A DNA stretch of 64,000 nucleotides, taken from NCBI RefSeq assembly GCF_032191465.1, contig NZ_JAQOUE010000001.1, positions 1,302,001 through 1,366,000 on the forward strand, written 5' to 3'. Below, piece by piece: positions 5,243 to 24,321 of the stretch. A program made the position numbers and the translations under genes. The notes beneath the pieces were generated by a model, which did not search any database, was not told the origin of the DNA, and was given only the letters and a program-made list of their open reading frames with translations. This DNA is from Candidatus Nitronereus thalassa (GTDB taxonomy: Bacteria; Nitrospirota; Nitrospiria; Nitrospirales; UBA8639). Within the stretch, counting starts at the first letter, position 1, and the number at the start of each line of letters is the position of its first letter.

Positions 5243-5348
5243 GGAAGATTTTCCTCAAATAGGCAAATTTGTTCTCAGGTCATTTTTTTCTGATATGAAC
5301 GTTTGGAATTCTCGCTAACTTAGCCCTGAGGAGCTTAGCTATTCACCA

Positions 5349-6299
5349 TCATTGCGGAGATGGAGAATTGGAAGAACCGTCCCCCAAAGCTCCATATTGC
5401 ACGGTAAGCATCACCTCATTGCCACAACCAAAATATTGGATTTGAGGAATCATCGTTTTCACCAAAAAAATTCCTCGCCCTGATCCTGCTAAGGCGGGAA
5501 TGGAATCGACATGGCCATGGAGAAGAGGTTCCCAATCAAACCCTTCACCTTCGTCCTGAATGCGACAATGAAAAACATGCTTGGCTGGATCATTTTCCAT
5601 CCACACCTTCACCCGACGATTGGCATAGAGTGGAAGTTTCCGACGTGCCTCCAATAATGCGTCATAGGTATCCTCCATCAAGGCCGTACGCTTCTCCTCC
5701 GCCGTAATCCCTAAATTTCCATGCTCAACGGCATTGATCAATAACTCTTGCAAACCCATTCGGACATGCAATTGACCACCTTCGGACAACCAGACATCCA
5801 CAGGTCGAAGCATGGTCGTCAGAATTCCACCTAAACTATCAAGGTTATTTTCGATTTCGAATGACCACGTCACCTTCTTGAGGGACTGTAATGCCTGGGT
5901 TTCTGTGGATCTTGCACGAATGAGTGAAAGAGACCGTTGAACGGTGTTCTTTAATTCCGAAATTTGAAACGGTTTATGCAAATAATCACTGGCTCCAGCT
6001 TTTAACGCGGCGACCGCTGTAGCCTCATCTCCATATCCCGTCACCATGATCACCGGACAATCAGGACAGCGGGCTTTGACTTGATGAGTTAACGACAACC
6101 CATCCATGTTCGGCATTCGAACATCGGTGATCACGAGACTCGGGTTCTGTTGTTCAAACACTAACAGAGCCTCATTGCCATCGGAAGCCACACACACCTC
6201 TAATCCCAATAGGATGATGGTTTCTCTTAAACAATCCAAAGTCACCGGATCATCATCCACCACCAGTACTGTCTCAGGATGTTGTGAGGGAAAAGCCAT
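5349..6299 (-). CDS. Receiver-HATPase (RsbW-like) response regulator
   Basis: A 316-residue fusion. Residues 10-125 are a receiver with acceptor Asp59 (VITDVRMP) and LHKPF. Residues of about 150-310 are a GHKL ATPase of the anti-sigma-factor kinase type: N-box ELLINAVEHGN, G1 box IQDEGEGFDW, G2 box GSGRGIFLVKTM. No HisKA dimerisation domain is present, so this resembles RsbW/SpoIIAB-type serine kinases whose substrates are STAS proteins. Two STAS genes are nearby (11099-11455, 22061-22363). It is the last gene of the STAS, HD-GYP, hybrid kinase, receiver-HATPase series. Phospho-control of its kinase activity is inferred from the architecture. Confidence 0.88.
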   Translation of the reverse strand: MAFPSQHPETVLVVDDDPVTLDCLRETIILLGLEVCVASDGNEALLVFEQQNPSLVITDVRMPNMDGLSLTHQVKARCPDCPVIMVTGYGDEATAVAALKAGASDYLHKPFQISELKNTVQRSLSLIRARSTETQALQSLKKVTWSFEIENNLDSLGGILTTMLRPVDVWLSEGGQLHVRMGLQELLINAVEHGNLGITAEEKRTALMEDTYDALLEARRKLPLYANRRVKVWMENDPAKHVFHCRIQDEGEGFDWEPLLHGHVDSIPALAGSGRGIFLVKTMIPQIQYFGCGNEVMLTVQYGALGDGSSNSPSPQ

Positions 6300-6336
6300 A
6301 TCGCCTTCAATCTTTTATGGTAATAGGTTGAAAGAT

Positions 6337-9324
6337 TCAGGAGTTTTTCTGGGCACAGAGGTGGTGGAGATACTCCTGAAATTCCCGAAATAGTTGTGTC
6401 ATCTTTTCGGATAATTGTTGAAAGACAAGTTCCGCCTTGTCCCCTCGTTGTTCAACAGCGAGTCGCTCAAGGTCTGCGGCCAAAACCATCAGGGAATCGA
6501 CGCGAAATGCTCCAACCGAACCCTTGAGGGTATGGGCCGAACGTTCAATCGTTATTAAATCTTGATCATCAAGCGCCTGACGAATTTTTGATAACGTCGC
6601 CGGCCCGATTTCCAGAAACATTTCAATTAACTCGTGCAACAATACCGGATCACCATCCAGATGAGACAGCGCAATACTGGGGTCCCAAATCGTGGATTCC
6701 CCACATGGAGTGACATCGTCAGACGATGGCATTCCTTCACTATTGTCGTCACTCAAGGTGACACATGTCGAATCATGAGTCTCGTCTAATTCTCTGTCCC
6801 ATGCGGACTCTTGAAGCGGCAACCAAGTGGTCAACATATCGACCACAGCCGACATGCGAAGCGGTTTCACCAAATAATCATCCATCCCAGCCGCCAGACA
6901 TTTTTCTCGATCTCCTGGCATGGCATTGGCAGTCATGGCAATGATGGGGACGTGATCCCTATGCCGTCGCTCCAAAGTTTTTTTGCCATCATTCTGTTTT
7001 TCGGCATCACGGTTGCTCCCCAGTGCTTCATGCTTTCTCATTTCTTGGGTAGCTTGAAGACCATCCATATGGGGCATTTGCCAATCCATGAAGACAAGGT
7101 CATACCGTGTCGTCACAAAGGCTTTGTAGGCCTCTCGCCCATTGCTCACCGCATCGACTTCGACCCCCGATTTTTGTAACATCCCTAGGACTACTTTGAG
7201 ATTAATCGGGTTATCCTCTGCCAATAATATTCGTCCCTGAAATCCCTTGGCGGGAGAAGTAAGCCCCTTGATCACACCCCCCTGAGCTTCTGATTTTTCG
7301 GGCACCGCTTCTCGGCGGGATAAGGCACCAGGCTGATTGAGTAACGATTGAAGGCATTTGTATAGCCTGGACCGGCGTAAGGGCTTGGTCAGCCATAAAT
7401 CTCCACCAACCTCGGAAGCCAACTCGCTACTTCTCCTATTGCCACGAAGAAGAGGAACTAAGGGGACCTTGGCTGTCCCCATCGCATCTTGAAGAGCTTG
7501 CAGGATTGATGAAGGGGCGGTTTCCAGCCCCTCACAATCAATGATGGCCATATCGAACACCTGAGGATTGGAAGACAGCCCTTGAAGGGTTTGAATCCCC
7601 TGCGAAAGTGAATCTACGCTATGACAAGACACTCCGACTGCTTCCAACGACGCTTCGATGCTCTTCTTCGTAGGGGCATGGGCCTCCAAAAGTAACACTG
7701 CCCGGTCTTGCAGCATGGAACGTTCAGTGGCAAACATTGCAACTGCGTGATCCGGGTAAAATTCAAACGGGATGGTGACCCAAAACTCACTCCCTTGCTC
7801 TGGGAGAGAAGTGACTCCGATGCCCCCCCCCATCAACTCCGCCAGTTGTTTGGAAATCGCCAACCCCAAGCCTGTCCCCCCATACTTTCGCGTCATCGTG
7901 GAATCGGCCTGTGAAAATGCCTGAAATAATCGATGTTGCCCTTCCGGGGTAATGCCAATCCCCGTATCCCGAACGGAAAATTTTAACTCCACGGTCTTCA
8001 GGTCTGTGCGACCAACAGCCAACGTATCAGAGTGAGCGTCTCGAGCTTGAGGTTTAATCTCAACAATCACCTCTCCTCGCTCTGTAAATTTTATTGCATT
8101 ACTAACAAGGTTAGTCAGGATTTGCCGCAATCGCATGGGGTCCCCTCGTAGGCCACCGGGCACATCATGAGAGACCCACCCTGATAAATGGAGCCCCTTA
8201 TCGTGAGCTCGCAACGCAAGAATGTCTAACACATCCTCCAGCAATTCCTGCAAATCAAAATCGATGACTTCAAATTCGAGCCGACCTGCTTCAATTTTCG
8301 AGAAATCCAAAATGTCATTAATAATACTCAAGAGGCCTTCGGCGGATTTTTGTATCGTCTCAGCATCTTCCTGTTGTTCAGCAGACAAGGAACTGTCGGC
8401 GAGCAATGCCGTCATGCCAATGATTCCATTCAACGGAGTACGAATTTCATGGCTCATTGTCGCCAGGAACGCGGCTTTCGCCTGAGTCGCAGCTTCTGCC
8501 TTCGTTAAGGCTTCATCCAATTCAATATTTTTACGGCCGAGCATTTCGACAAACTGGCCGAGTTCATCAGCCGCGTTCTTCCGCTCAGTCACGTCAATGC
8601 CATAACCTCGAACTAACTGTAGTTCTATCAATGGGCAAAAGAGCCACGCATATTGTTTATGCCCCACATCCACCTCAACGTCTTGCTCCGATACTCCTGA
8701 CTCCAAACATCGCCCAACGATGTTGGACACATCATGAGGCAACGCCGCGGAGAACCCTTCGTCACGAAATCCTGCCTGTTGCATCAACCGGGTCATGGAA
8801 GGATTCGCATACAGCATATTGGCTTGGCTATCCAACTCAACAATTGGGAAGGGACTTTCCTCTGGGATCGAGGCCAACCGACGCAGATTTTCCTCCATTT
8901 GAATCTGGGTGGCCAAATCTCGAAAACTTAGAACAATCCCTGACGCTCCCTCATCAACCAGAGGCGTACATGTCAATTCAACCACCAGCCATTCTCCATT
9001 CCGAGCCTTGAGGCCCGCTCGGGGGAGCCATAAAGGTTTCCCTGTCTGTAAAGCTTGAATAATGGGGCAGACGTCTTCATTTGAGGAAGACTGACTTGAT
9101 GAACATTGAGTCAATTCATGAAAGGACCGACCCTGGCAGACCGATTCACCCCAACCCAGAAGCCTCACCGCTTCCTGATTTAGGGTTTGGATGATGCCAC
9201 GCTGATCCACCGTACACACCGCAACCGCTAAGGAATTGAGCACCGCCCGATTGGTCGCATGAAACCAACGTAATTGTTGCTCCAACGACCCCTGCGATCC
9301 TATTGGTGATCTATTTTGTGACAT
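6337..9324 (-). CDS. Hybrid histidine kinase PAS-PAS-HisKA-HATPase-REC-REC-Hpt
   Basis: A 995-residue BarA-like multi-domain kinase. Two PAS-like domains cover about 20-140 and 150-250. HisKA has His292 (SHEIRTPLNG). The HATPase spans about 395-520 (VRDTGIGITP, YGGTGLGLAI). A first receiver (541-665) keeps Asp596 and LTKPL but lacks the usual acidic pair, so it may be degenerate. A second, complete receiver has Asp747 (VFMDWQMP). A C-terminal Hpt has His931 (SAHTLKGSVGAF). No membrane helix was seen, so it is probably cytosolic. The Hpt could pass phosphate to a separate receiver; the adjacent receiver-HATPase 37 bases downstream is the obvious candidate (inference). Confidence 0.93.
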   Translation of the reverse strand: MSQNRSPIGSQGSLEQQLRWFHATNRAVLNSLAVAVCTVDQRGIIQTLNQEAVRLLGWGESVCQGRSFHELTQCSSSQSSSNEDVCPIIQALQTGKPLWLPRAGLKARNGEWLVVELTCTPLVDEGASGIVLSFRDLATQIQMEENLRRLASIPEESPFPIVELDSQANMLYANPSMTRLMQQAGFRDEGFSAALPHDVSNIVGRCLESGVSEQDVEVDVGHKQYAWLFCPLIELQLVRGYGIDVTERKNAADELGQFVEMLGRKNIELDEALTKAEAATQAKAAFLATMSHEIRTPLNGIIGMTALLADSSLSAEQQEDAETIQKSAEGLLSIINDILDFSKIEAGRLEFEVIDFDLQELLEDVLDILALRAHDKGLHLSGWVSHDVPGGLRGDPMRLRQILTNLVSNAIKFTERGEVIVEIKPQARDAHSDTLAVGRTDLKTVELKFSVRDTGIGITPEGQHRLFQAFSQADSTMTRKYGGTGLGLAISKQLAELMGGGIGVTSLPEQGSEFWVTIPFEFYPDHAVAMFATERSMLQDRAVLLLEAHAPTKKSIEASLEAVGVSCHSVDSLSQGIQTLQGLSSNPQVFDMAIIDCEGLETAPSSILQALQDAMGTAKVPLVPLLRGNRRSSELASEVGGDLWLTKPLRRSRLYKCLQSLLNQPGALSRREAVPEKSEAQGGVIKGLTSPAKGFQGRILLAEDNPINLKVVLGMLQKSGVEVDAVSNGREAYKAFVTTRYDLVFMDWQMPHMDGLQATQEMRKHEALGSNRDAEKQNDGKKTLERRHRDHVPIIAMTANAMPGDREKCLAAGMDDYLVKPLRMSAVVDMLTTWLPLQESAWDRELDETHDSTCVTLSDDNSEGMPSSDDVTPCGESTIWDPSIALSHLDGDPVLLHELIEMFLEIGPATLSKIRQALDDQDLITIERSAHTLKGSVGAFRVDSLMVLAADLERLAVEQRGDKAELVFQQLSEKMTQLFREFQEYLHHLCAQKNS

Positions 9325-9464
9325 GCAAACACCTTTGATCAGCCAGCACGATTACCGCCTCATTGAGCCAAAACTTTTCAGCAGCGCTAGGTTGCTGATT
9401 AAAATGGCTCAGGGGGCACAAACAACACAGCCTAGAATGCGGCACCATGTGCGATCGGTAAGAT

Positions 9465-10844
9465 TCAAGCTGAAGCGCCGACAGTCATATATTTTTCAAC
9501 CTGAATTTGTTCCTGATGCGCATCTAACAAGGACCGAATCGATCGGGCTGGATCCCCAGGTGCCGAATCATTCAGGTCAATAACAATGGGAACCGGATAA
9601 GGAAGATGGTCGGGCCCCACAATCAACTTGATCTTGGGTTTAAGCAAGCTCGTAGGATTCGTCATAACGACCACTCCCTGCTCCCCGGTGGACAGCTCAA
9701 CTAGACTCCCTAAAGGATACACACCCAAACATTGAATCAGGCGTTCGATGGGGCGTAAGGAAAAACGACCTTGTTGCGCCTCATGGTACAATTCTCTTAA
9801 AACCAATGCCGTAGGCCGAGAAGGCCCTGCGCCCCAATTGCTCGTCAACTTGTCAAACTCATCGACCAAGCCCACGACCTGGCTCAAAAGGGAAAGGACC
9901 GAACCTTGAAGTCCATGTGGCTCTCCCGTTCCATCCGATCGTTCATGATGCTCCAAAATAATCTGTTTAATACCTGGAGAAAGTTCGGTAGAGGATTGCA
10001 CCATGGCATATCCCAGCTCCGCATGTTTGGACAGTAACTGACGCTCTGCCTCTCCGGCCGTTTTCCTTTTTCGGACCAAATTGTTGGGTAACCGAACATA
10101 GCCGAGGTCATGGAGCAGGGCACCCATGGCGAGAGTTTTCAATTCTTTTTCCTCCCATCCCATTTCAATTCCCAAGACGACGGATAGGGCACAGACATCT
10201 ACCACATGGTGGTAGAGATATTTATCAACCGAGGAAAGATTTTGGATCAGGATAATCTGAGAAAAGGCTTTTGGATCATCTACGACATTCTGAACAATGT
10301 CGTGAGCCATATTCTCCAGCGCTGGCTGGTCGATCGGCTCTCCTGAATGCACTCCTTCAAATACTTTTTGGACGGCGCGTACGGCTTCATCACGGACACG
10401 TTGGGCACCCTCTTCTGGTGTCAGCTGAGGACTGTCGGATGGTCTGGACCCAGAGCCAGAATCCATTCTGAAAGACGGGGCAAGCGAATCCTTAGGATGT
10501 TGGGGGTTATGATCATCACATGATTCGGCCATTCTAACATCAGAAACTTTATTCGGAATGTCCGATCCTAGTTCGGGCAAAACGGTTTCATCCACAACAG
10601 ATGATTCAATTCCCTGCGGCTCATTGGCATCGGGTGTATCTGGAGCACTAGACTCCTCAACGTCCAGCCCCTTAGAGGTTTCAATAACCACGGTCCGAAC
10701 ACCGGACTGCCGTAACCGTTCCACTTCCCCTATATTTTTTATGATTCGGTGGTGCAGGATGAAAGGAGTATTCCACCAACTTTGGTCCATGCCCATGAGA
10801 AACATGCCGGGTTTAAGCTGATCTAATGAGATCTGTTTTTTCAT
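9465..10844 (-). CDS. Variant HD-GYP domain protein (DUF3391-like N-terminus)
   Basis: A 459-residue protein. The first 60 residues (MKKQISLDQLKPGMF, VVIETSKG) match the DUF3391-type region often found before HD-GYP domains. Residues 65-145 are acidic and probably disordered. The HD-GYP-like domain spans 150-400. The likely metal ligands are kept: His213, His245-Asp246, His274, His299-His300, Asp304. Two signature positions differ: HD-x-GK reads HDLGY, and the GYP triplet reads G-E-P (307-309). Active members hydrolyse cyclic-di-GMP; whether this one does is open. It sits between the STAS gene and the hybrid kinase. Confidence 0.85.
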   Translation of the reverse strand: MKKQISLDQLKPGMFLMGMDQSWWNTPFILHHRIIKNIGEVERLRQSGVRTVVIETSKGLDVEESSAPDTPDANEPQGIESSVVDETVLPELGSDIPNKVSDVRMAESCDDHNPQHPKDSLAPSFRMDSGSGSRPSDSPQLTPEEGAQRVRDEAVRAVQKVFEGVHSGEPIDQPALENMAHDIVQNVVDDPKAFSQIILIQNLSSVDKYLYHHVVDVCALSVVLGIEMGWEEKELKTLAMGALLHDLGYVRLPNNLVRKRKTAGEAERQLLSKHAELGYAMVQSSTELSPGIKQIILEHHERSDGTGEPHGLQGSVLSLLSQVVGLVDEFDKLTSNWGAGPSRPTALVLRELYHEAQQGRFSLRPIERLIQCLGVYPLGSLVELSTGEQGVVVMTNPTSLLKPKIKLIVGPDHLPYPVPIVIDLNDSAPGDPARSIRSLLDAHQEQIQVEKYMTVGASA

Positions 10845-11098
10845 GATGTTATGAATCGATGCTCAGCACTCCCTCATCCTAACAACCATGAAGCGAGAGA
10901 ACTGAAAAACAGGCAGGAACGTCCTGGAGAAACCACGGGTTTGAACCCGGTGAGAAAAACAAAAAAAGACCGGCCAGACAGGATTGTGGACCCCATCAAA
11001 ATAATGGGCTCGCCAATACCGCGTCACCCTTTCCCTTCATGGCAGACAAAGGGTTATTCCAAAAGTTTTGGAAGGCGCCTCTGCCAGACAGCTTTTTC

Positions 11099-11455
11099 TT
11101 AATGAGCGACGGCCACGGACTGATCAAACCCCGAGCATGCCTCTTCCACAGACGAAAACACTGGGATCATCCTGGGCACATTGGCAAGATCTAATATCTG
11201 CCGAACATACGACTGTGGATTTACCAAGGAAATACGACCTTCCTTTAGCTTCAGATTTTGATGGGCCACGACCAACAAACCTAATGCGGAGCTATCGACA
11301 AAGGATACTTTCTCGAGATTGAGAATCACATGGTGACATCCAGCTTGTTGAAGTCGATCCATGGCCTCTTTAAATTCCCGCCGGGATGCAAAATCAAACC
11401 GACCACTGATATCCAATACTGTCGCGGAACCCTGCTGATGTTCTGTCAACTCCAT
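11099..11455 (-). CDS. STAS-domain anti-sigma-factor antagonist (RsbV/HsbA-like)
   Basis: A 118-residue single STAS domain. The loop FVDSSALGLL holds the Ser55/Ser56 pair where SpoIIAA/RsbV-type antagonists are phosphorylated by an RsbW-type kinase. The start has a strong ribosome site (GGGAGGT before ATG). A sigma-28-type promoter lies about 150 bases upstream, so this is the first gene of the operon that continues into HD-GYP, hybrid kinase and receiver-HATPase. The likely partner kinase is the protein at 5349-6299 and the likely phosphatase is the receiver-PP2C at 23095-24321 (inference from families). Confidence 0.9.
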   Translation of the reverse strand: MELTEHQQGSATVLDISGRFDFASRREFKEAMDRLQQAGCHHVILNLEKVSFVDSSALGLLVVAHQNLKLKEGRISLVNPQSYVRQILDLANVPRMIPVFSSVEEACSGFDQSVAVAH

Positions 11456-11604
11456 GACGACCTCCCTAAAAAGGTAAACTCTGTACTTCGACTCGAACCA
11501 AAGATGTTATGCTCAATTCCTGGGGTGGCCCCCTGAAGAATTTCCCATGAATTCGATAATCTTGAGGAATCGTCTGATATTTATCAGGACAACCCGCTAG
11601 GGTA

Positions 11605-11632
11605 TTATCGGTGATCAAGACCTAGATCTTTA
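11605..11632 (-). promoter_or_regulatory. Candidate sigma-28 promoter for the STAS/HD-GYP/kinase operon
   Basis: Minus strand TAAAG (11628-11632), 15-base spacer, ACCGATAA (11605-11612); the -10 matches seven of eight bases of GCCGATAA and the -35 pentamer is exact. It lies in the 186-base gap between cheB and the STAS gene. Confidence 0.7.
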
Positions 11633-11641
11633 CCCAAAAGA

Positions 11642-12694
11642 TCACACTTGAGACACGCGATGTAAAATGTCAGCAGGTATTTCGCTTAAAGGTAGGATTT
11701 TATCGACCCCTCCAGCCTTAATGGCCTCCTTCGGCATTCCAAACACAACACAAGAGGCCTCATCCTGGCCGATCGTATAAGCTCCAGCACGTTTCATCTC
11801 TAAAAGACCGGCGGCCCCATCATTTCCCATTCCTGTGAGAATCACGCCAACACTGTTCGTTCCTGCATATTGGGACACTGATTGGAACAACACGTCAACC
11901 GAGGGTCGGTGCCGATTCACCGGCGGGTTTTGATTGGTCACGACATGATAGCGAGCACCGCTCCTACGAAGCTCCATATGAAAATTTCCAGGAGCAATGA
12001 GCGCTTGCCCCGGAATCACGCTATCGCCATCTTCGGCTTCCTTGACCCGAATTTGGCAAATTTCATTGAGCCGATCCGAAAAATGCTTAGTGAATCGCTC
12101 CGGCATGTGTTGCGTGATAATAATAGGCGGAGTATTCGGAGGAAGAACTTCAAGGATATCGCGCAATGCCTCTGTGCCCCCGGTTGACGCGCCAATGGCA
12201 ATAATCGTGTCTGTCGTTTTCAACATAGCCGATGAGGCCAACGAAGGTCGGACTTCTACTTCAGAATTCTTTCGTTTCTGCCGGGCCCGAACAGTAGATT
12301 GGGCCGCCGCTTTGACTTTATGAATAAGATCTTGCCCAAGATCTTCCATACCATGCCGAATATCTAAGGTCGGTTTGGTTGCAAAATCCACCGCTCCCAA
12401 CTCGAGTGCCCGAAGGGTAGTTTCACATCCTTGTTGGGTTAACGAACTGACCATGACCACAGGCATAGGATGACCCGTCATTAATTTTTCCAAAAATGTC
12501 AGACCATCCATCTTGGGCATTTCAACATCCAAGGTCAGGACATCAGGATTGAGGGTTTTTATTTTTTGTCGGGCGATATAAGGATCTGGAGCCGTACCTA
12601 TGACTTCGATTTCAGAATCTTGAGACAATATCTCTGTCAATACCCCGCGAATTAATGCCGAATCATCAACCACGAGAACACGTATCATTTTCAT
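11642..12694 (-). CDS. cheB: CheB, receptor methylesterase/deamidase response regulator
   Basis: A 350-residue protein with an N-terminal receiver (Asp11/Asp12, acceptor Asp56 in TLDVEMP) and a C-terminal methylesterase. The esterase carries the Ser of IAIGASTGGTEAL, the His of ITQHMPERFT and the Asp of TGMGNDGAAG. It removes methyl groups added by CheR and is activated by CheA. The ribosome site GGAAGGA precedes the ATG. It lies 94 bases after cheD in the cheR-cheD-cheB order. Confidence 0.96.
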   Translation of the reverse strand: MKMIRVLVVDDSALIRGVLTEILSQDSEIEVIGTAPDPYIARQKIKTLNPDVLTLDVEMPKMDGLTFLEKLMTGHPMPVVMVSSLTQQGCETTLRALELGAVDFATKPTLDIRHGMEDLGQDLIHKVKAAAQSTVRARQKRKNSEVEVRPSLASSAMLKTTDTIIAIGASTGGTEALRDILEVLPPNTPPIIITQHMPERFTKHFSDRLNEICQIRVKEAEDGDSVIPGQALIAPGNFHMELRRSGARYHVVTNQNPPVNRHRPSVDVLFQSVSQYAGTNSVGVILTGMGNDGAAGLLEMKRAGAYTIGQDEASCVVFGMPKEAIKAGGVDKILPLSEIPADILHRVSQV

Positions 12695-12787
12695 TACATT
12701 CCTTCCCCAAAATCAGAAGTAGTTTTATCTCCCCATGGTCCACGATCTCTTTCACTAGGCATGAATCTCAATCCTGAATATAGGCAC

Positions 12788-13381
12788 TTAGAAAAGCGTC
12801 ACATCACCAGCACTAACTTCTTTTTCAACAATCTGCTGGTATTGCTGTTCTTCTTTCACAATCTGTTGTCGTTGAATACCATCCAGTTTCTTTAATAGCA
12901 CTCTCCCAGATTCCGTAAAGTAATAGACCTTTCGCGGACACACGTCTCCGACATCAGCCTTGATAGGCTGCATACCTTCACGCTCCAAGTATTCTAGGGC
13001 CCACGCTGCATTTTTCGCCCCGACATCATTCCGACCTTCATAAATTTTTCCACCGCCAAACACCTTCACTTCAAAGCGACTCTTGTGGCCTCCTTGTCCC
13101 AACAATTCATTTACGAGTACTTCCATGGCATAACTACCATACCGCGCCGAAGGGCCCCAATGATCGTTTTCCACGTTTCCGCTAGGCGAAGCCAACATAA
13201 AATGATTCATACCGCCGATTTTGGTAACGGTATCCCTGATACACACCGAAATGCACGATCCGAGAACCGTATACACCACCATGGGCGCCCGACTCACAAA
13301 AAACTCGCCCGGCATAATCACGGCAATTTCATGAGGAAACCGCATATCTCGCATTCGCCGTATATGGCCAAACTCCATCAC
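12788..13381 (-). CDS. cheD: CheD, receptor glutamine deamidase
   Basis: A 197-residue CheD. The catalytic Cys is in TVLGSCISVCI (Cys43) and the His in GGMNHFML (His60). The start is either GTG at 13381 or the adjacent ATG at 13378, both behind a GAGGGAAG ribosome site. After the CheD fold comes a Glu/Gln-rich extension (about 165-190) ending GDVTLF. The last four residues VTLF also end the receptor-like protein at 20899-22029. Family role: deamidates receptor glutamines and in some species works with CheC; no CheC was seen here. Confidence 0.95.
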   Translation of the reverse strand: MMEFGHIRRMRDMRFPHEIAVIMPGEFFVSRAPMVVYTVLGSCISVCIRDTVTKIGGMNHFMLASPSGNVENDHWGPSARYGSYAMEVLVNELLGQGGHKSRFEVKVFGGGKIYEGRNDVGAKNAAWALEYLEREGMQPIKADVGDVCPRKVYYFTESGRVLLKKLDGIQRQQIVKEEQQYQQIVEKEVSAGDVTLF

Positions 13382-13438
13382 GACTTCCCTCTTCCCCCCT
13401 CTTGCGCTGGCGTTCCTTCGAAAATTCTCATTTCCAAT

Positions 13439-14314
13439 TTAGACCGATTTTCGATAGATCGTCGGTGCCACATAGGTAAAAGGATGATCGATCCATTGCA
13501 AACTTTCTGAATGTCCGATAAACAGATAGCCTCCTGGTTTTAAATATCGAAAAAACTTCGCCATCAGTTTGGCCTGTGTTGGACGATCAAAATAGATCAT
13601 GACGTTCCGGCAAAAAATGACATCTAATAAACTTTGAATGGGAAAAGATTCATCCATTAGATTAATGCGTCGATAGATGACCATCTGACGGACTTTGGGC
13701 TTAACCTTCACGTATCCTCGTTGTCCCCCGTTCCCTCGAAGAAAATGACGCTTCACCATCTCCGGCGGTAAATTCAATACACGCTCATCTTCGTACACTC
13801 CACGAGCAGCCTTCGCCAACACTCGTGTCGATAGATCCGACGCCAAGATTTTACAATTCCATTGACTCGGGTCGGGCACGGCATCTAATAAAGTCATGGC
13901 AATGGAATACGGCTCCTCTCCACTTGAGGAAGCGGAAGACCAAATTCGAATATGCTTGGATGGAGAGAGCGTGGGAATGATTTGTGCTTTTAAGAATTCG
14001 AAATGGACGGGCTCCCGAAAAAAATCCGTTTTATTAGTGGACAAGAGGTCCAGCATTTGCGTGAGCTCGCCAGAGTCCACTCCATTCACGACCAAATCAT
14101 AATAGGCTTGAAAGGAAGGCAACCCGAGGTGTCGAATCCGCTTGGATAGCCTGGATACGATCAATGTTTGTTTTTGTTCGGTCAGAGTAATCCCTGCCTT
14201 TTGATATAAGAGGCTTTGAATCTGTTGAAATTCATTGGTCGTAAGGGTCATATCCATCATAGACTCGTTCGTAGGCTCATGTGCCCCCTCGAAAGAACAT
14301 TCGAGAATCAACAT
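13439..14314 (-). CDS. cheR: CheR, second chemoreceptor methyltransferase
   Basis: A protein of up to 291 residues with the CheR signatures IWSSASSSGEEPYSIAM and DVIFCRNVMIYF and the ending SESLQWIDHPFTYVAPTIY. No TPR extension. The ATG at 14314 lacks a ribosome site; internal ATGs at 14260 (MMDM) or 14251 (MTLTTNEF) better fit the usual family start. It is first in the cheR-cheD-cheB operon, behind a sigma-28-type promoter at 14359-14386. It is the partner of CheB in adaptation of the receptors encoded at 15314-17545 and 20899-22029 (inference). Confidence 0.93.
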   Translation of the reverse strand: MLILECSFEGAHEPTNESMMDMTLTTNEFQQIQSLLYQKAGITLTEQKQTLIVSRLSKRIRHLGLPSFQAYYDLVVNGVDSGELTQMLDLLSTNKTDFFREPVHFEFLKAQIIPTLSPSKHIRIWSSASSSGEEPYSIAMTLLDAVPDPSQWNCKILASDLSTRVLAKAARGVYEDERVLNLPPEMVKRHFLRGNGGQRGYVKVKPKVRQMVIYRRINLMDESFPIQSLLDVIFCRNVMIYFDRPTQAKLMAKFFRYLKPGGYLFIGHSESLQWIDHPFTYVAPTIYRKSV

Positions 14315-14358
14315 GCAATCATATTTTTTGGTGAGATTTCACTTTGGTTGTGTGTTCT

Positions 14359-14386
14359 ATATCGGTGTTCATCAACAAGCCCTTTA
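14359..14386 (-). promoter_or_regulatory. Candidate sigma-28 promoter for cheR-cheD-cheB
   Basis: Minus strand TAAAG (14382-14386), 15-base spacer, ACCGATAT (14359-14366). Same architecture as the other FliA-type sites. It lies 45 bases before the first possible ATG of cheR. Confidence 0.68.
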
Positions 14387-14643: not shown

Positions 14644-14663
14644 CAGAAAATTCCGAGATAGCT

Positions 14664-15206
14664 TTATCGCATTCTGACGATAATTGCCCCCATGAAATCT
14701 CCCTTTTTCCAATCCTTCTTCGTCGTTTTGGGATGTTTATTATGACAATCGGCACACCCTTCAACAATAGCAAAATCCGCAGACATGCCTTTTGTCATAT
14801 TTCCATCTTCAAACGTCACCATTTTCTCTTTCCCGCTGGCCAGAGCCGCCAGCATTTCTTTTTCCTTGTCGGTCTTCGCCGCATTGGACGAGTACAGAGG
14901 ATTAGTCCCAACTAAGGTCAATTCAAAATCCTTAATTTCCGCGCCAATGGCCTTGACATATTGGGCAGGAAGCATAATCGAATGATCTTCCTTGACCCAA
15001 TCTTCATTAGGGCTCACGCCGCCCTTCTTAGCCTTGCCAATAATACCTTTGACATAAACTGTTCTCGCTGCTTTCGCGGTCGCAAGAATGTACTTAATCG
15101 CCGTATCCTTGCTCATGTCAGCCGCTTGGCCAGACGAAACAATAACGCCTGTCGCAAATACCACACCGACTCCCAACAATACCACTGTCTGCAATGTTTT
15201 CCTCAT
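14664..15206 (-). CDS. Periplasmic Tll0287-like (DUF3365) haem c protein
   Basis: A 180-residue protein from the ATG at 15206, which follows the near-perfect ribosome site TAAGGAGGGG. Residues 1-28 are a signal peptide (MRKTLQTVVLLGVGVVFATG). The body resembles the Tll0287-like/DUF3365 sensor fold. One c-type haem site lies near the C-terminus: C151-A-D-C154-H155. These domains are often the periplasmic part of sensor kinases or chemoreceptors; here the domain stands alone. It lies about 110 bases downstream of a chemoreceptor gene with its own sigma-70-like promoter and a strong terminator, so it is probably a single-gene unit. Redox, oxygen or NO sensing is inference. Confidence 0.85.
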   Translation of the reverse strand: MRKTLQTVVLLGVGVVFATGVIVSSGQAADMSKDTAIKYILATAKAARTVYVKGIIGKAKKGGVSPNEDWVKEDHSIMLPAQYVKAIGAEIKDFELTLVGTNPLYSSNAAKTDKEKEMLAALASGKEKMVTFEDGNMTKGMSADFAIVEGCADCHNKHPKTTKKDWKKGDFMGAIIVRMR

Positions 15207-15269
15207 ACATCCCCTCCTTAGGATAATACGGTGAATAGTAAACGCTTTTCCCATTACTGAGGATTGCGT

Positions 15270-15298
15270 ATTCTTTGCCGACTCCCCCTGTATGTCAA
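15270..15298 (-). promoter_or_regulatory. Candidate sigma-70 promoter of the haem c gene
   Basis: Minus strand TTGACA (15293-15298), 17-base spacer, AAGAAT (15270-15275). A perfect -35 and a moderate -10, about 65 bases before the ATG at 15206. Confidence 0.55.
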
Positions 15299-15313
15299 GC
15301 AATATTTACACTC

Positions 15314-17545: not shown

Positions 17546-17628
17546 GCCCCCTTTTTCCTTCTCCCTTTCCTAAAGAAAGGTCGTGATATCGAGAAATACC
17601 ATTACTATTAATACAATCATTTTTCTAT

Positions 17629-18144
17629 TTACTCGTTTTCCTTCGAGGCTACGGCTTCCACCTGTTCGATTTCCCGGTCTGACAGCACTCGATCAATATC
17701 CAGCAGCGTGACCAGTCGATCTCCAGTTGTCGCGATTCCATCGATGAAACTGGTATCTACTTTTACGCCCAAGGCTGGCGCTGGTTTCATGTCCTGCGCT
17801 TTCATCGTCAGAACATCGGACACCGAGTCGACAATCATACCCATTACACGACCCTGTACCACTACCACGACAATGACCGTGAAGCTGGTAAAGTCAATCT
17901 GCTCCATTCCAAATTTCATCCGCAAATTGATGATCGGCACAATGGTCCCACGAAGATTGAGGACACCCTTCATATAGGGAGGAGTATTGGGAATTCTTGT
18001 GACATCGGTATACCCTTTGATTTCTTGTACGGTGAGTATATTCACTCCATATTGTTCATCTCCCAGAACGAAGGTCAGATATTGCTTTTCCTCCTCGTCC
18101 CCGGTTATTCGTGATTCTTCACGCTCAACAACTGCCGTTGACAT
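17629..18144 (-). CDS. cheW: CheW, chemotaxis coupling protein
   Basis: A 171-residue CheW with the family core (YLTFVLGDEQYGVNILTVQE, VLNLRGTIVPIINLRMKFG, GMIVDSVSDVL). It couples receptors to CheA. A strong ribosome site (GGAGGAGGT) precedes the ATG. It lies between cheA and the dCache receptor, so the core signalling complex is encoded as a block. Confidence 0.96.
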   Translation of the reverse strand: MSTAVVEREESRITGDEEEKQYLTFVLGDEQYGVNILTVQEIKGYTDVTRIPNTPPYMKGVLNLRGTIVPIINLRMKFGMEQIDFTSFTVIVVVVVQGRVMGMIVDSVSDVLTMKAQDMKPAPALGVKVDTSFIDGIATTGDRLVTLLDIDRVLSDREIEQVEAVASKENE

Positions 18145-18272
18145 ACCCTACCTCCTCCATCAGATTTGGAATGGCCCTTGATGAACAGGGTCACTACGTT
18201 TCATACAATTCGGCTCATCATGTTCCCAACACTTTCGCCAATGGAGCAGTTTGTTCGCACAACCCCTGACAC

Positions 18273-20381
18273 CTACGCGGCCACACTTTGTCCATTGAGG
18301 GAATGACTGACTAACCCTTGCACATCAACAATCAACGCGACATGACCATCTCCCAGAATCGTCGCGCCGGCAATGCCACCCACTTTTTGATAATTTTGTT
18401 CCAGGCTTTTAATGACGACTTGTTGTTGCCCGACGAGTTCATCCACTAACACGGCCACCCGTTTTCCTTCTGACTCCACAATAACTAATAATGCCTGGCA
18501 AGGATCGGTGACTACCGGTGTTACCTGAAACGCTTCATACAAACGGAGAACCGGAAGCCATTCCCCGCGCAGACCGACTACCTCTCCACGTCCCGCCATG
18601 GTTTGTAATTCCGACCGCTTAGGTTGAATGGTCTCGGTGACAGACAATAGCGGAATAATGTATTGCTCCTCCCCAACGCGAACGGTCATTCCATCCATAA
18701 TCGCTAAGGTGAGAGGAAGTTTGAGCATCAGTCGTGACCCCTTGCCTTCTTGAGTCTGGATGGTCACGGCTCCACCCAACGCTTCAATGTTTCGTTTCAC
18801 GACATCCATACCCACTCCACGACCTGACACATCCGTAATTTTCTCTGCGGTGGAAAAACCCGGCCGGAAGATCAGTTGCCAGACTTGGTCATCGGGCAAG
18901 GTCTCCCCCTCGGAAATCACGCCATTGGCAACGGCTTTTTTCAGGATTTTTTCCCGATTCAAACCTCGCCCGTCATCTTCCACCGTAATGCAGATACTTC
19001 CACCTTCTTGATAGGCATTCAGCCGGATAGTGCCCAACTCACTTTTTCCCTCGGCCTTGCGATCTTCTGGTAACTCCAATCCATGGTCAGCAGAGTTACG
19101 CACTAAATGAGTCAAAGGATCTCCGATAGCCTCAATGACCGTCTTATCGAGTTCCGTTTCCTCACCTGACATGACAAGCTGAATTTGCTTGCCACTTTTT
19201 GACGCCAAATCTCTCACCAAACGTGGGAACCGTTGAAATGCTGTCCCGATGGGTAACATCCGGATAGACATCACCCGTTCTTGCAATTCTCGTGTATTCC
19301 GCTCCAATTGAAGGACTCGCTCTTGAAGAATGGGGAGTTGATCCAAAGTAAATCGTTCTCCTAAATCCGTAATCATGGATTGCGTAATAACTAACTCACC
19401 GACCAAATTAATGAGCTTGTCGATTTTTTCCGTATCCACACGAATCGAGGCCGCTTCACTCTTTTTGACACGAGAGACAGAGTCTTGCTGTTTTTGAAGC
19501 GCTTGCGCGACCTGTTGAGGAGCGACCACCTTGTCCTCGACCAAGATTTCCCCGATTCGCCTTTGTTTATTTAAACTCTCCTCGAGTTGCGCTTGAGTTA
19601 ATGCGCCTTCGTCTACCAGGATTTCGCCCACACGTTTGGTTTCTTGGCTGACAAATGTGGAGACCGGCTGCTCCGTAATCACTAATTCACTTCCATCACG
19701 CACAAAATCAAACACAGCATCGAGTTCTCTCACCGACTTATCCGTCTCCATACGGATCTGCCAGGCCAAGTAGCAGACCTCGGGATCCATCACGGCTAAG
19801 GCAGGCACGCGATTAGTTTTTACTCCCACCTCTAACACTTCCCCGAGTTCGGCGAGATCTTTAATGATGCGAGAAGGATCCAAACCACGCTGAAACAATT
19901 CAGACAACGGCACCCAATCCACACAGAGATGCGTTGGACCGGAAGGTCGAGAAGGAGCGGACGACGTGGCTTGAGGCGAAGAATCCGCTTGTTCTCCCAT
20001 TTGACAGGCCACAAGTTCGTCCTCGATGGGTTTTATTATCTCGGGGTCGAAACTGGCTCCACCTTGTGCCGCATCGAGTAATGACTTCAATGCATCCAAG
20101 CTTCGCAACAACACGTCGATCGTCCCCTGGGTAGCGACCATTTCTTGATTTCGAAGACGATCCAGCACATTCTCCATCTTGTGGGTCAGTTCTCCGATGG
20201 CCGTAAACCCAAACATACCCGCGTTCCCTTTAATGGAATGCGCAGCTCGAAATATTCGATTTAACAGGTCGAGATCATCGGCCCGCTGTTCTAAATCCAG
20301 CAAGCCGGTCTCCATGGTTTCGACATGCTCCGCAGACTCTACAAAAAAAGTTTCCTGAAATCTTGAAAAATCAATGCTCAT
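18273..20381 (-). CDS. cheA: CheA histidine kinase with tandem-repeat insertion
   Basis: A 702-residue chemotaxis kinase. Hpt (1-105) has His48 (RAAHSIKGNAGMFG). The region 150-240 may be a P2-like domain. Next come two copies of a 23-residue repeat (251-273 and 276-298; VGEILVDEGAL and IGEILVEDKVV). Then follow the dimerisation domain (310-375), the HATPase (VRNSADHGLE, DVSGRGVGMDVV) and the CheW-like domain to residue 702. It phosphorylates CheY (20457-20828) and CheB. The repeat resembles the short GEILVxxGxLT units of type II/IV secretion ATPase N-domains; its role in CheA is unknown. This is a different protein from the CheA fragment at 1-113. Confidence 0.95.
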   Translation of the reverse strand: MSIDFSRFQETFFVESAEHVETMETGLLDLEQRADDLDLLNRIFRAAHSIKGNAGMFGFTAIGELTHKMENVLDRLRNQEMVATQGTIDVLLRSLDALKSLLDAAQGGASFDPEIIKPIEDELVACQMGEQADSSPQATSSAPSRPSGPTHLCVDWVPLSELFQRGLDPSRIIKDLAELGEVLEVGVKTNRVPALAVMDPEVCYLAWQIRMETDKSVRELDAVFDFVRDGSELVITEQPVSTFVSQETKRVGEILVDEGALTQAQLEESLNKQRRIGEILVEDKVVAPQQVAQALQKQQDSVSRVKKSEAASIRVDTEKIDKLINLVGELVITQSMITDLGERFTLDQLPILQERVLQLERNTRELQERVMSIRMLPIGTAFQRFPRLVRDLASKSGKQIQLVMSGEETELDKTVIEAIGDPLTHLVRNSADHGLELPEDRKAEGKSELGTIRLNAYQEGGSICITVEDDGRGLNREKILKKAVANGVISEGETLPDDQVWQLIFRPGFSTAEKITDVSGRGVGMDVVKRNIEALGGAVTIQTQEGKGSRLMLKLPLTLAIMDGMTVRVGEEQYIIPLLSVTETIQPKRSELQTMAGRGEVVGLRGEWLPVLRLYEAFQVTPVVTDPCQALLVIVESEGKRVAVLVDELVGQQQVVIKSLEQNYQKVGGIAGATILGDGHVALIVDVQGLVSHSLNGQSVAA

Positions 20382-20456
20382 AGCATGCCCTTTTCACCAT
20401 CCCTGAAAATGTCATTGTAGTACCGTGGCTTTGCACCATCAGAGACTTCCCTTGAC

Positions 20457-20828
20457 TCACCCTGGCAAAACCTTTTTGATGACTTGCAACATTTGATCGG
20501 GGTTAAAGGGCTTCACAATCCAGCCCGTGGCTCCGGCTGATTGGCCTTCTTTTTTCTTGTCATCCGCCGACTCAGTGGTCAACATGAGTACCGGGGTAAA
20601 TTTGTGAGCCGCCATCCCTCGAATTTCCTTAATAAGAGAAATGCCATCCATATTCGGCATATTGAGATCGGTGATCACCAGGTTAGGTTTTGCACCGCCA
20701 TTGAGTTTGGCAACGGCTTCTTTTCCATCTCCAGCTTCCACGACCTCGAACCCCGCCCCCTTGAGCGTAAACGTTACCATTTGTCGCATGGAGACCGAAT
20801 CATCCACGACTAAAATTGTCTTGCTCAT
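20457..20828 (-). CDS. cheY: CheY-type response regulator, second copy
   Basis: A 123-residue single receiver with acidic residues 9-10, acceptor Asp54 (VITDLNMP), Thr in MLTTESADDKKKEG and Lys in WIVKPF. The TTESADDKKKEGQSAGATGW stretch is typical of CheY-like proteins that sit directly beside CheA. It lies 75 bases upstream of cheA in the same operon. It may serve the motor or act as a phosphate sink. Confidence 0.93.
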   Translation of the reverse strand: MSKTILVVDDSVSMRQMVTFTLKGAGFEVVEAGDGKEAVAKLNGGAKPNLVITDLNMPNMDGISLIKEIRGMAAHKFTPVLMLTTESADDKKKEGQSAGATGWIVKPFNPDQMLQVIKKVLPG

Positions 20829-20898
20829 ACACCTCCCCCTATACTTCCCAACACGTATTTGGCTTATTGGTTTTTGTGAACGTAAATCTGCTCACAGT

Positions 20899-22029
20899 TC
20901 AAAACAACGTTACGTTATCCTCCGATTCGTTCTTCGCCGACACCGTCGTGAGATCTGCGCCTTCTGCAATTGCGTTCATCACGGCTCGCTCAGACTCCAT
21001 GGTATAACTCTCGCCCAGTCCACGAAAAATAGAAGCTGCTTCCAACGCGACTTCCTGCGAGTACCCCTCTTTCTCCATTTTTTTAATGGTCTCCCGAATG
21101 GTCTCAAGAGGCTCATATACATGCTCAATTTTTTGGCGAGTGATATCTTGAAATTGCAATGAGACGACAATGCCCGCGATATCTTGTGCCAACACGTTGG
21201 CTTGGTCTGCACCCCGCGTGACTTTTTCTTCTAATTCCCTGTTGGTTTCCAAAATTGTTTTCGTAAAACCTTTTACTCTTTCCTGGGATTCCAACGTCAC
21301 CGTCATATCAACAGAGGCTAATTCTTCTAATCCATTCATGGCCCCCCGAGTGCATTCGGCAACGCCTTCACACATTTCCCGAATCTGGTTAGCCGCATGT
21401 CGTGATCGATTCGCTAACTTCGTGACCTCCTCAGCCACAACTGCAAACCCACGACCATGCTCACCAGCCCTTGCAGCCTCAATCGCGGCATTGAGTGCTA
21501 ACAGCCGGGTTTGATCTGCAATGAATTCCACCTCTTCAACCATCTGAGAAATCGACGCGGTACTCGTCACGGCTCCCTCCATGACTTGAACCGCTTGCAT
21601 GGTGATTTTTGAAGTTCGGAAGACATCTTGAACAAATCGATCCATGGTCTTGCTCGTTTCTTCCAATATATGTTTCACCGAGTGGATTTCACCAACCTCT
21701 TCAGATTCCTCTGTGTCAGCGACTAATAGCGAGTTCTCTTCCGCCTGTGTTCGTGCGCGTTGTGCAATATCCTGAAAACTCACGATCAATCCATCTGCCG
21801 CCCGACCCGTTTCCTCCACCACCATCTTGAGCTGAGCCACGAGGACCGGGGTCAATTCACTAAGACAAGCTGAAAAATCCTTCCAACTTTGTCGATACGC
21901 CTGATTCTCCTCACATTGTTGCTGACAACAAGCAAGTTGCTCCTCCAGCCAAGCTTGTTTTCTCTTGGCCACCACTCCCCAAGCCACTCCAAGCAGGCCA
22001 ATAAATATTCCGATTATGAGAGGCATCAT
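20899..22029 (-). CDS. Receptor-like protein with MCP signalling tip and CheZ-like motif
   Basis: A 376-residue protein with one N-terminal membrane helix (2-20), no HAMP and no periplasmic domain. The MCP hairpin tip is at about 165-215 ([20 protein letters not shown]). At 290-304 comes [15 protein letters not shown], which aligns with the CheZ helix of this window (ALSFQDLVAQRVKKL) and keeps the catalytic spacing Asp295-x3-Gln299. A degenerate copy, [10 protein letters not shown], is at 83-92. The protein ends EDNVTLF, sharing its last four residues with CheD. It could be a receptor-bound CheY-P phosphatase or simply a soluble-signal receptor; the motif is seen, the activity is inferred. 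It is second in the STAS2 operon. Confidence 0.85.
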
Positions 22030-22060
22030 GTTTAGCCTTTTTCTGGAAGATTATTCATCT

Positions 22061-22363
22061 TCACGATTTCATTACTGAGGAGATCGCAGGACCCTCCAAA
22101 AATTTTCCACAGCCAATAACCTCAAACTGCTCTTTGACGGCGGAGGGGACATTGGTAACCTCTAGAATCATTTCCTGGCAGGCAGAGACAACCAATTGGA
22201 CCCCTGATGAATCCATGCGTGAAACGTTGGCCAAATTCAGCTCCAAGTCTCCCGGCTTTTCACTCAAACCCAGGAGAGCCTGACGAAAATCCGCGGCTTC
22301 AAAAATCGTTAATTCACCCTCGGGCTGTAAAATTATGCGGCCGTTCTGTTCTTGAATCGTCAT
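22061..22363 (-). CDS. STAS-domain protein (second copy)
   Basis: A 100-residue STAS domain. The ATG at 22363 is preceded by TTGGAG eight bases away; a longer reading from TTG at 22378 would add five residues. The loop SRMDSSGVQLVV contains the Ser pair of the antagonist family (about Ser52/Ser53). It is the first gene of the operon with the receptor-like protein, cheY, cheA, cheW and the MCP. It is a candidate second substrate of the RsbW-like kinase at 5349-6299; STAS proteins at this position in chemotaxis operons are also known without proven partners. Confidence 0.82.
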   Translation of the reverse strand: MTIQEQNGRIILQPEGELTIFEAADFRQALLGLSEKPGDLELNLANVSRMDSSGVQLVVSACQEMILEVTNVPSAVKEQFEVIGCGKFLEGPAISSVMKS

Positions 22364-23094
22364 TTCTTTGTTCTCCAAGCCTAGACTTCCGAATTCACAA
22401 CGTCACTAACCTGCGGACATTCGGCTCTTCTATCATGAGAAAAACTTTCCCATTCATCCTTTCACTAATATTGGGAAAGCGTCCTGGTTCATCAAAATTG
22501 ACCCTTTTCTATCGGAGTTGACCTATTTCAGCTTAAGACTATTTCCAAAACGTTCGGCATCTAGATAAATATATTTCATTTCACGGTATATGAAACCCAC
22601 GATCAGCATTCTGGTGTTCTTTCAGAATCAGGCCGAAACTCACGTACGGTACTGCCTCTTCAAGGCGCATCGCTCGCCTTCATGGCGACAGGCCACGACT
22701 TCGATAGATAGGAATTTGGTTTTCTAGAGAACTGGAGACAAGAGAGGAGTAGGGTCCATGCCAGGCATCAAACCGTGGGGGCCTAATATGCCGAGGACAT
22801 GTCGCGCACCCAACATCCGAAATATTCCAGATTCGTTCAATCAACGGATTGGGACCTCCAACTTGCAGGCCGTATTCTCCTGCCCGTTTAGGTGTTTAGG
22901 GCTAGCAACAGAACGAGTTAACGTCTTTTATGTTGCCTCATATCTTCTTGAGATGTCTTCGGAGCAAGAAGTATTTACCTTTAGTAGATCATCGTTCAAA
23001 TACTTGCCATACCAAACCTAGGTGCAGTGAATATTGATCACTCGTCTTTCCAACAAAAACATCTATATTGGTGTCATCGCCAGGCAGTCTCTAC
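22364..23094. other. Large intergenic region between STAS2 and the PP2C gene
   Basis: About 730 bases with no convincing gene. It holds a sigma-28-type promoter at 22509-22536. A plus-strand ORF at 22758-23021 (87 residues, with GAGGAG upstream of its ATG) has no recognisable motif and odd composition, and I do not call it. Around 22634-22650 is CACGTACGGTACTG, vaguely like group II intron ends, but no intron structure or reverse transcriptase could be seen. Confidence 0.5.
22509..22536 (-). promoter_or_regulatory. Candidate sigma-28 promoter for the STAS2-che operon
   Basis: Minus strand TTAAG (22532-22536), 15-base spacer, TCCGATAG (22509-22516). Six of eight -10 bases match the FliA consensus. 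About 146 bases upstream of the STAS2 ATG. It would drive STAS2, the receptor-like protein, cheY, cheA, cheW and the MCP. Confidence 0.6.
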
Positions 23095-24321
23095 TCAGGA
23101 GAGTATTTCCAAACCCACTAACGCGACATCATCGAAAAAGGTGTCTTGATGTTGCCAATCTTTGGCTTGTTGGACGATCCATTGCAATCCTTGCTTTAAT
23201 GGTGTGGTATGAACAGCCTGACACGCGTTCTCAAATCCGGTACGATCCCACAACTCTTCAGCAGGAGAAAAAACCTCATAGATCCCGTCACTAAATAAAT
23301 ACAATCGATCACCCGACTGCAAAGACACTTCCTCACTTTGGTAGACTTCTTCGATACCAAATCCTATCGGCCACGTTTTAGCGCCAATAGGTTGAAGGGG
23401 TTGGTCATTTCGCGTCAGAACGACTGCCGGATGGCCAGCGGTAGCGTACCGCAAACGACGGGTGGGCAAATGAAGGGCCCCAACCCAAATCGTAAAATAT
23501 TCGCCCTCATCCGTCAGTGGATTTTCCTTATTGAGGCTGGCAATAATTTCTCCAGGATCATACGTTGGATGACTTTGGGCCATGTGGTCTGCCCGGAACT
23601 TTAATGCCAAGGACACGGCCCGCAAGGCAGGACCAATCCCATGCCCTGACATATCCAGAATGGCCAATCCAAGATATTCATCACTCCACCGAGTCACCTG
23701 AAATAGATCTCCTCCAAGGCCCAGCGACGGAATAAATTCCCAGTCTAATCGAATACCAGGGACAATTTCTCCCGCTTTCGGAAACAGTGAGGTCACAAAA
23801 TTCGCAGCAGATTTTAGCTCGGCATCCATTTCACTTTGTTTTTGAGCTATGACTTCATACGATCGTTCCAGGTTGTCAATTAATCGTTGGGTTCGAAGGC
23901 CGGCATTCACTCGAGCGGTAACTTCCTGATCGGATGCGGACTTGGTTAAGAAATCATCTGCCCCACGCTGTAACCCCTCAGCAATTTGGGCTGGCTGATC
24001 CAATGCGGTCATCAAGATAATTGGTGTTGATCGAAGTTTTTCATGAGCCTTCACGGCTTCGCACAGGGTCGGACCATCCATTTCCGGCATCATCCAATCA
24101 GAAATGATGAGATCCGCACCGTGTTCCTCCAAGATGGCCATGGCCTGTTTCCCATCTTCAGCTTCAATAATTTTATGGCCTAAACGTTCCAGGCGTCGCC
24201 GGGTAACCATTCGAGCCAGCTTCTCATCATCAACCAACAAAATGGTAGAAGGCGAAGACGAACCGGAAATCGCCTTCTCAAAACCAGGTTCTTCTGTCAT
24301 CAAATTTATGCGCTCAGTCAT
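23095..24321 (-). CDS. Receiver-PP2C (RsbU/SpoIIE-type) phosphatase
   Basis: A 408-residue response regulator. The receiver has acceptor Asp75 (IISDWMMP) and LTKSA in place of the usual K-P pair. A short coiled-coil follows (about 145-175), then a PP2C/SpoIIE phosphatase with the metal motifs LGGDLFQV, LDMSGHG, LFSDGIYE and FDDVALV. The start ATG at 24321 has AAGGAG upstream; the ORF is open to 24393. Family role: dephosphorylates a STAS antagonist. The two STAS genes nearby are the natural substrates (inference). A receiver-PP2C is also the core of P. aeruginosa HsbR. Confidence 0.92.
   Translation of the reverse strand: MTERINLMTEEPGFEKAISGSSSPSTILLVDDEKLARMVTRRRLERLGHKIIEAEDGKQAMAILEEHGADLIISDWMMPEMDGPTLCEAVKAHEKLRSTPIILMTALDQPAQIAEGLQRGADDFLTKSASDQEVTARVNAGLRTQRLIDNLERSYEVIAQKQSEMDAELKSAANFVTSLFPKAGEIVPGIRLDWEFIPSLGLGGDLFQVTRWSDEYLGLAILDMSGHGIGPALRAVSLALKFRADHMAQSHPTYDPGEIIASLNKENPLTDEGEYFTIWVGALHLPTRRLRYATAGHPAVVLTRNDQPLQPIGAKTWPIGFGIEEVYQSEEVSLQSGDRLYLFSDGIYEVFSPAEELWDRTGFENACQAVHTTPLKQGLQWIVQQAKDWQHQDTFFDDVALVGLEILS

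Follow-up and report, generated by a model that had tools for sequence, protein, structure and literature searches.

How a phosphorelay would set a partner switch in which serine kinase and serine phosphatase form two proteins and each carries a receiver is the question raised by a chemotaxis and flagellar locus of Candidatus Nitronereus thalassa (Nitrospirota). The window, a stretch of 64,000 nucleotides, is part of a 4.0-Mb genome. It encodes a receiver protein with an RsbW-type HATPase domain (the window kinase), a receiver protein with an RsbU-type PP2C domain, two STAS proteins and a hybrid kinase ending in an Hpt domain. The main new point is that, judged by their phospho-site residues, both receivers are intact here, in contrast to the degenerate kinase receiver of the Nitrospiraceae. 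We lean, by a small measure, towards reading these parts as a partner-switching module of the HptB-HsbR-HsbA or CrsR-CrsA kind, in which two response regulators would divide the tasks of HsbR between them. The parts are the following.

5349 to 6299, minus strand: receiver and RsbW-type HATPase (window kinase, H#1); Pfam Response_reg and HATPase_c_2, no HisKA reported.
6337 to 9324, minus strand: hybrid histidine kinase, PAS-HisKA-HATPase_c-receivers-C-terminal Hpt by Pfam; likely phosphate source.
9465 to 10844, minus strand: HD-GYP-like protein, DUF3391 and HD_5 by Pfam; candidate output.
11099 to 11455, minus strand: STAS2, anti-sigma-antagonist type by Pfam and NCBIfam, DSS site VDSSALG; likely substrate.
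22061 to 22378, minus strand: STAS1, Pfam STAS, DSS site MDSSGVQ.
23095 to 24393, minus strand: receiver and SpoIIE/RsbU-type PP2C; Pfam Response_reg and SpoIIE-type PP2C.
24749 to 25546, minus strand: fliA, flagellar sigma factor, FliA-type sigma regions by Pfam; candidate indirect target through FlgM.

A Pfam search of the window proteins recovered, each in its place, all the domains named in the initial annotation. The order of transcription is fliA, receiver-PP2C, STAS1, a methyl-accepting chemotaxis protein (MCP)-like gene, cheY, cheA, cheW, an MCP gene, a Tll0287-like gene, cheR, cheD, cheB, STAS2, the HD-GYP-like gene, the hybrid kinase with Hpt and the receiver-HATPase, all on the minus strand. 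The hybrid kinase gene ends 38 base pairs (bp) ahead of the window kinase gene.

Receivers were scored at five positions, which we take to correspond to CheY D12, D13, D57, T87 and K109. Identical sequences were counted once, and proteins lacking the N-box or the D.SGHG pattern, including one kinase of genome G200, were set aside. The window kinase keeps D, D, D, T and K, the window PP2C likewise has all five residues, and the proposed separate receivers on kinase and phosphatase are thus both complete at the phospho-site. Canonical receivers are found throughout the window's family, in 6/6 window-type kinases, 11/11 receiver-HATPases of another type (H#2) and 12/12 PP2C proteins. As both receivers are intact, both halves of the switch would be able to take phosphate in this family. 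The situation differs in the Nitrospiraceae (f2), identified by the grouping of their kinases with the kinase of L043, a locus titled Nitrospira sp.; they make up 41 of the 97 genomes searched. There, none of 24 kinase receivers is canonical: the acidic pair is incomplete in all 24 and T/S is lost in 17, while D57 is kept in 21 and K in 18. These degenerate receivers come from loci L134-L137, L139, L154, L156 and L013-L030, where the gene neighbours are retained. The receiver of the Nitrospiraceae-type PP2C is canonical in 11/11 complete proteins (18 of 29 rows, cut at the locus edge, were unscored, and one of the 11, from L138, belongs to another family). With its kinase receiver degenerate, Nitrospira would set the switch via the phosphatase receiver alone. 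The loss is probably derived, because the kinase tree places the degenerate group within intact ones. The receiver is canonical in 73/73 other named kinases and in 18/18 receiver-PP2C proteins of named loci.

The window kinase scores 40.7 bits against PF13581 (cut-off 27.4), and its HATPase residues N189, D249, G251, G253, G274 and G276 are invariant across 50 kinase sequences. By its HATPase domain and the conserved N box and glycine boxes, it is assigned an RsbW/SpoIIAB-type serine kinase domain. Its structure model (predicted local distance difference test, pLDDT, 91.6) matches both domains of Leptospira LvrC (PDB 9qih, deposited as SenB) with a Foldseek E of 2.6e-22, a template modelling (TM) score of 0.46 and a root-mean-square deviation (r.m.s.d.) of 13.9; by sequence the match is full length (E 2.9e-27). 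A full-length receiver plus Bergerat domain with canonical receiver, the architecture of LvrC and TciR, was thus found by comparison with LvrC. In VIA-align, the matches listed for the kinase model were mostly receivers, so that its HATPase half was barely probed there. In a tree of 104 rows (IQ-TREE), from which the partial row G155, named proteins of at least 440 amino acids (aa) and PP2C fusions were left out, the window kinase, five relatives from its own family and ten Nitrospiraceae kinases form one clade (support 99/92). This clade stands apart from the H#2 kinases of the window's own family, whose group has a support of 92/90, under the star mark. The tree contained the H#2 kinases of G137, G166, G168, G170, G175 and G179; for the rest of the 19 found beside a PP2C in this family, assignment to H#2 relies only on their position and alignment.

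The PP2C gene was taken to 24393, the start at 24321 being an internal ATG. The protein scores 111.5 bits against PF07228 (cut-off 25), and the metal-site aspartates D229, D247, D369, D421 and D422 are invariant in 26 PP2C sequences. By domain and metal site it is classed as an RsbU/SpoIIE-type phosphatase. Its model (pLDDT 88.0, under 50 for residues 1-18 and 32-45) superimposes on Pseudomonas aeruginosa RssB (PDB 3eq2/3f7a) over 361 residues (Z 28.7, r.m.s.d. 8.7), and also matches the PP2C domains of SiaA, Rv1364c and SpoIIE. The genome holds two SpoIIE-family PP2C matches, of which only that of the window was found to be receiver-bearing or RsbU-type. The other, C1:717963, was considered as a second RsbU-type phosphatase and rejected: it is a 250-aa PP2C in which no receiver was found, Stp/PstP-like by eye. 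Between the STAS1 and PP2C genes, 716 bp (22379-23094) hold no convincing gene at the place where family relatives have a receiver-HATPase; tblastn with four H#2-type proteins detected no H#2 remnant in this gap (best E 0.32).

The STAS domain and the serine at the phospho-site place both STAS1 and STAS2 among RsbV/SpoIIAA-type proteins (STAS-only proteins are reviewed in PMC8256260). Against the NCBIfam anti-sigma-antagonist family TIGR00377 (cut-off 53.45 bits), STAS2 scores over with 72.6 and STAS1 under with 34.2; an alternative start of STAS1 is the ATG at 22363. The genome contains 11 STAS2-like matches at E 1e-6. When nine of its STAS proteins (8 of these 11, and STAS1) were compared with the STAS directly upstream of relatives' PP2C, STAS2 was the top match for 7/8; for the STAS of G141, another STAS of the genome scores slightly above STAS2. 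STAS1 is matched by the STAS1 proteins of the window's family, and a STAS1-type gene lies near the PP2C in the genomes of this family that were read.

In the Nitrospiraceae, the genes follow one another as STAS, receiver-PP2C, free Hpt and receiver-HATPase. The PP2C is present in 33 genomes; the kinase is encoded within 5 kb of it in 32 and a STAS within 1 kb in 31, and in the two genomes with no STAS so close (G018, G200), the PP2C is at a contig end. PP2C and kinase occur jointly in 32 of all 41 genomes, the PP2C alone in one, the kinase alone in none and neither in eight (Fisher p 9e-8, uncorrected for ancestry). The conserved linkage exceeds chance. The Hpt sits between phosphatase and kinase in 18/18 best-scoring loci (L013-L030), within a longer frame in L016, and five free Hpts of Nitrospiraceae loci were confirmed by Pfam. 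G127 (L137) has a hybrid kinase along with the Hpt. In G145, PP2C and Hpt are present and the kinase was not found nearby; in G155, from another family, STAS, PP2C and a HATPase frame are present, and receiver and Hpt were not found. Immediately upstream, 6/8 long loci (L134, L136, L139, L154, L156, L157) have genes or fragments resembling the window's cheR1 or cheB, and L135 and L137 have a different che set. As STAS2 of the window directly follows cheB, it would occupy the position of the Nitrospiraceae cluster. For the initial annotation, a lack of conserved co-occurrence of its genes in related genomes would have refuted the proposal. STAS2, PP2C, Hpt and HATPase do co-occur in the Nitrospiraceae, and the HD-GYP-like gene is linked solely within the window's family, directly after STAS2 in 21/24 genomes. 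In the loci of this family that were read (G137, G166, G168, G170, G171), the hybrid kinase with Hpt comes after these two genes.

Beyond these families, 80 named loci carrying a relative of the kinase were examined; many are short contigs, and a PP2C was counted if it lay within 5 kb of the kinase gene in the stretch present. A separate receiver-PP2C occurs in 17/80, including seven Methyloversatilis; two of the 17 are Nitrospirota and 15 lie outside by title. The two-protein arrangement, which had been thought unusual for HsbR-like functions, is hence widespread. One locus titled Nitrosomonadales (L080) carries a receiver-PP2C, a hybrid kinase with Hpt and a receiver-HATPase in a row. Fusions of receiver, HATPase and PP2C were found in 4/80 relatives, two of them confirmed by Pfam, and a STAS within 5 kb in 10/80 loci.

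Several observations weigh against a single module. In the genomes read from the window's family, the PP2C has fliA on one side and the che genes on the other; an H#2 kinase is within 1 kb of it in 19 of the 24 family genomes with PP2C, and 17 kb separate the PP2C from the window kinase in the window. No PP2C lies within 5 kb, in the stretch present, of 59/80 named kinase relatives, and the Nitrospiraceae counts come from related, non-independent genomes. A second receiver-HATPase exists in the genome at C1:2991373, with beta-lactamase-like and thioredoxin genes among its neighbours; a possible descendant of the H#2 beside the PP2C, it is unplaced in the tree, though of the kinases compared it matches G137_H2 best (52%). 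This protein and the window kinase are the top two of 13 HATPase_c_2 matches in the genome, the other 11 being frames of 352-1270 aa that are presumed to be mostly histidine kinases. Finally, Vogesella, host of the receiver-RsbW protein TciR, is stated to lack an RsbV homologue (PMC12826045).

The strongest rival reading is that of two separate modules without common substrate. One would be tied to the chemosensory array and consist of PP2C, STAS1 and H#2, its kinase now being elsewhere in the genome; the other would consist of STAS2, the HD-GYP-like protein, the hybrid kinase and the window kinase. It agrees with H#2 being the usual neighbour of the PP2C, STAS1 coming right after in the genomes read, and with G137, G166 and G171, where both kinases are present at separate loci. 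However, the same PP2C family occurs with STAS2-type STAS and window-type kinase in the Nitrospiraceae, the window's PP2C has neither an adjacent H#2 nor a remnant of it in the gap, and the search of the genome gave no further RsbU-type PP2C that could serve the STAS2 module. Five family genomes have no H#2 next to the PP2C: the window's own, G207 (same genus), G180 and two of 84% completeness, G189 and G183. The first three carry the window-type kinase, which is present in six genomes of the family in total. In another genome of the genus (G125, locus L144), a histidine kinase, an H#2-type receiver-HATPase and a short STAS frame stand in a row, without PP2C at E 1e-25. Two independent modules are considered unlikely. 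Because H#2 is the usual neighbour of the PP2C, it is a proposal that the latter works with the window kinase 17 kb away; the two are likely, but not certainly, a pair.

It is still less probable that the window kinase acts mainly as an anti-sigma factor under the control of its receiver, as proposed for LvrC, and that its phosphorylation would free or capture a sigma factor directly, without STAS. The architecture shared with TciR, and the missing RsbV homologue in the host of the latter, would suit such a role, but a STAS stands beside the PP2C in 31/33 Nitrospiraceae clusters and the kinase residues are conserved. Since CrsR is described as both kinase and anti-sigma factor (PMC6482189), this role may be one part of the partner-switching module. 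That the parts are merely co-located in a large chemotaxis and flagellar region, without acting together, is hardly credible given the linkage in 31-32/33 Nitrospiraceae genomes, the recurrence in other phyla and the fusions, even though receivers are numerous in the region and the genera differ in how the parts are ordered.

The sequences establish the domains, the catalytic and phospho-site residues, the linkage in relatives and the kinase grouping; the phosphotransfer, the sign of control, the kinase that opposes the PP2C and the output of the proposed partner-switching module are inferred. Phosphate would travel from the hybrid kinase (6337-9324), by way of the Hpt at its C-terminus, to two receivers, one on the HATPase (5349-6299) and one on the PP2C (23095-24393). 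Kinase and phosphatase would between them determine whether STAS2 (11099-11455), and perhaps STAS1 too, is phosphorylated on serine. According to its state, the STAS protein would capture or release a partner, which may be FlgM (and hence FliA), the HD-GYP-like protein or a HATPase-bound sigma factor. The conserved set thus names likely partners for receiver-RsbW regulators, whose characterisation has only begun, namely a STAS substrate, an opposing PP2C and an Hpt donor, and the mechanism is directly testable.

Regarding the output candidates, the HD-GYP-like protein of the window has GEP instead of GYP, which is kept in 4/6 family members aligned. In all six, HDxG is followed by Tyr or His (Tyr in the window), where we take Lys to be expected (HDxGK motif). 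With this Lys replaced and GEP in place of GYP, its activity is doubtful. The genome has two FlgM matches above the Pfam cut-off; one is encoded on the strand of the kinase gene, some 21 kb away from it, and scores 36.9, just under the NCBIfam cut-off of 40.75.

A tentative and rather doubtful extension is that the two live receivers have different donors, the kinase being fed by the Hpt of the hybrid kinase and the phosphatase by the nearby CheA. The STAS protein would then integrate two senses, and decay of the kinase receiver would have reduced the Nitrospiraceae to one input. The receiver lost in the Nitrospiraceae kinase and kept in the window's family allows a one-input switch to be compared with a two-input switch; if the two donors are real, this would be a natural experiment in wiring.

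Promoter searches gave no signal for FliA-type promoters (the window has 56 matches, shuffles 46.4 with a standard deviation of 7.6). Sigma-70-like promoters and terminators, scanned in 4701-12800 and 20300-25600, were close to shuffle levels, and no operon limits were set. The Tll0287-like protein is encoded at 14664-15302, between the MCP and cheR genes, and is retained in several genomes of the window's family. On the other side of the kinase gene, a 649-aa HEAT-repeat protein (2818-4767) is followed by cheR, a CheY-like gene, cheY and cheZ; the HEAT-repeat gene also adjoins the kinase gene in G180, G207 and G171. A second chemosensory cluster (cheY, cheZ, cheA, cheW-type, MCPs; locus L122) starts at the window's left end (224-1320) and continues outside. 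A 135-aa frame amid the flagellar genes (46540-46947) has no Pfam match at E 0.001.

Among known proteins, RssB of P. aeruginosa has the same receiver and PP2C architecture as the window's phosphatase, with 25% identity; the window protein scores 115 bits, far below the NCBIfam RssB cut-off of 700. For the kinase, TciR of Vogesella indigofera (PMC12826045, December 2025) is a receiver plus RsbW-like protein with relatives in Nitrospira, and its authors state that no receiver-RsbW regulator with tested function was known then. It differs in its host, which according to them has no RsbV homologue, the comparison being by description only. LvrC shares the full-length combination of receiver and RsbW-type domain, in a different domain orientation. 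The cited passages name no STAS or PP2C partner for LvrC, whereas relatives of the window kinase sit with STAS, PP2C and Hpt; the LvrC paper of April 2026 calls its sigma factor unknown (PMC13269768). In open papers, mostly at the level of titles and starts of abstracts, no description was found of a split pair with two receivers.

The closest parallels are two partner switches in which kinase and phosphatase functions are joined. In Shewanella oneidensis, crsR and crsA belong to the che1 locus (PMC9855816). As in the window, a partner switch lies among che genes and combines receiver, PP2C and kinase functions with a STAS protein; CrsR, however, is a single protein with one receiver and controls RpoS, while the functions are split here and there are two receivers. 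In P. aeruginosa, HsbR comprises receiver, PP2C and kinase/anti-sigma domains and is fed by HptB, and HsbA binds FlgM if unphosphorylated (PMC6482189). The window resembles this path in its Hpt input, receiver, PP2C, HATPase kinase and STAS. The targets there are FlgM and a cyclic-di-GMP enzyme; here, the cyclic-di-GMP candidate is HD-GYP-like rather than a diguanylate cyclase, and output through either FlgM or cyclic-di-GMP would be by analogy. The Hpt of the window is the C-terminus of a hybrid kinase, unlike the free HptB, and is free in the Nitrospiraceae relatives. Above all, HsbR is one protein with one receiver, whereas kinase and phosphatase of the window are two proteins, and their two apparently intact receivers set them apart from the single-receiver HsbR and CrsR.

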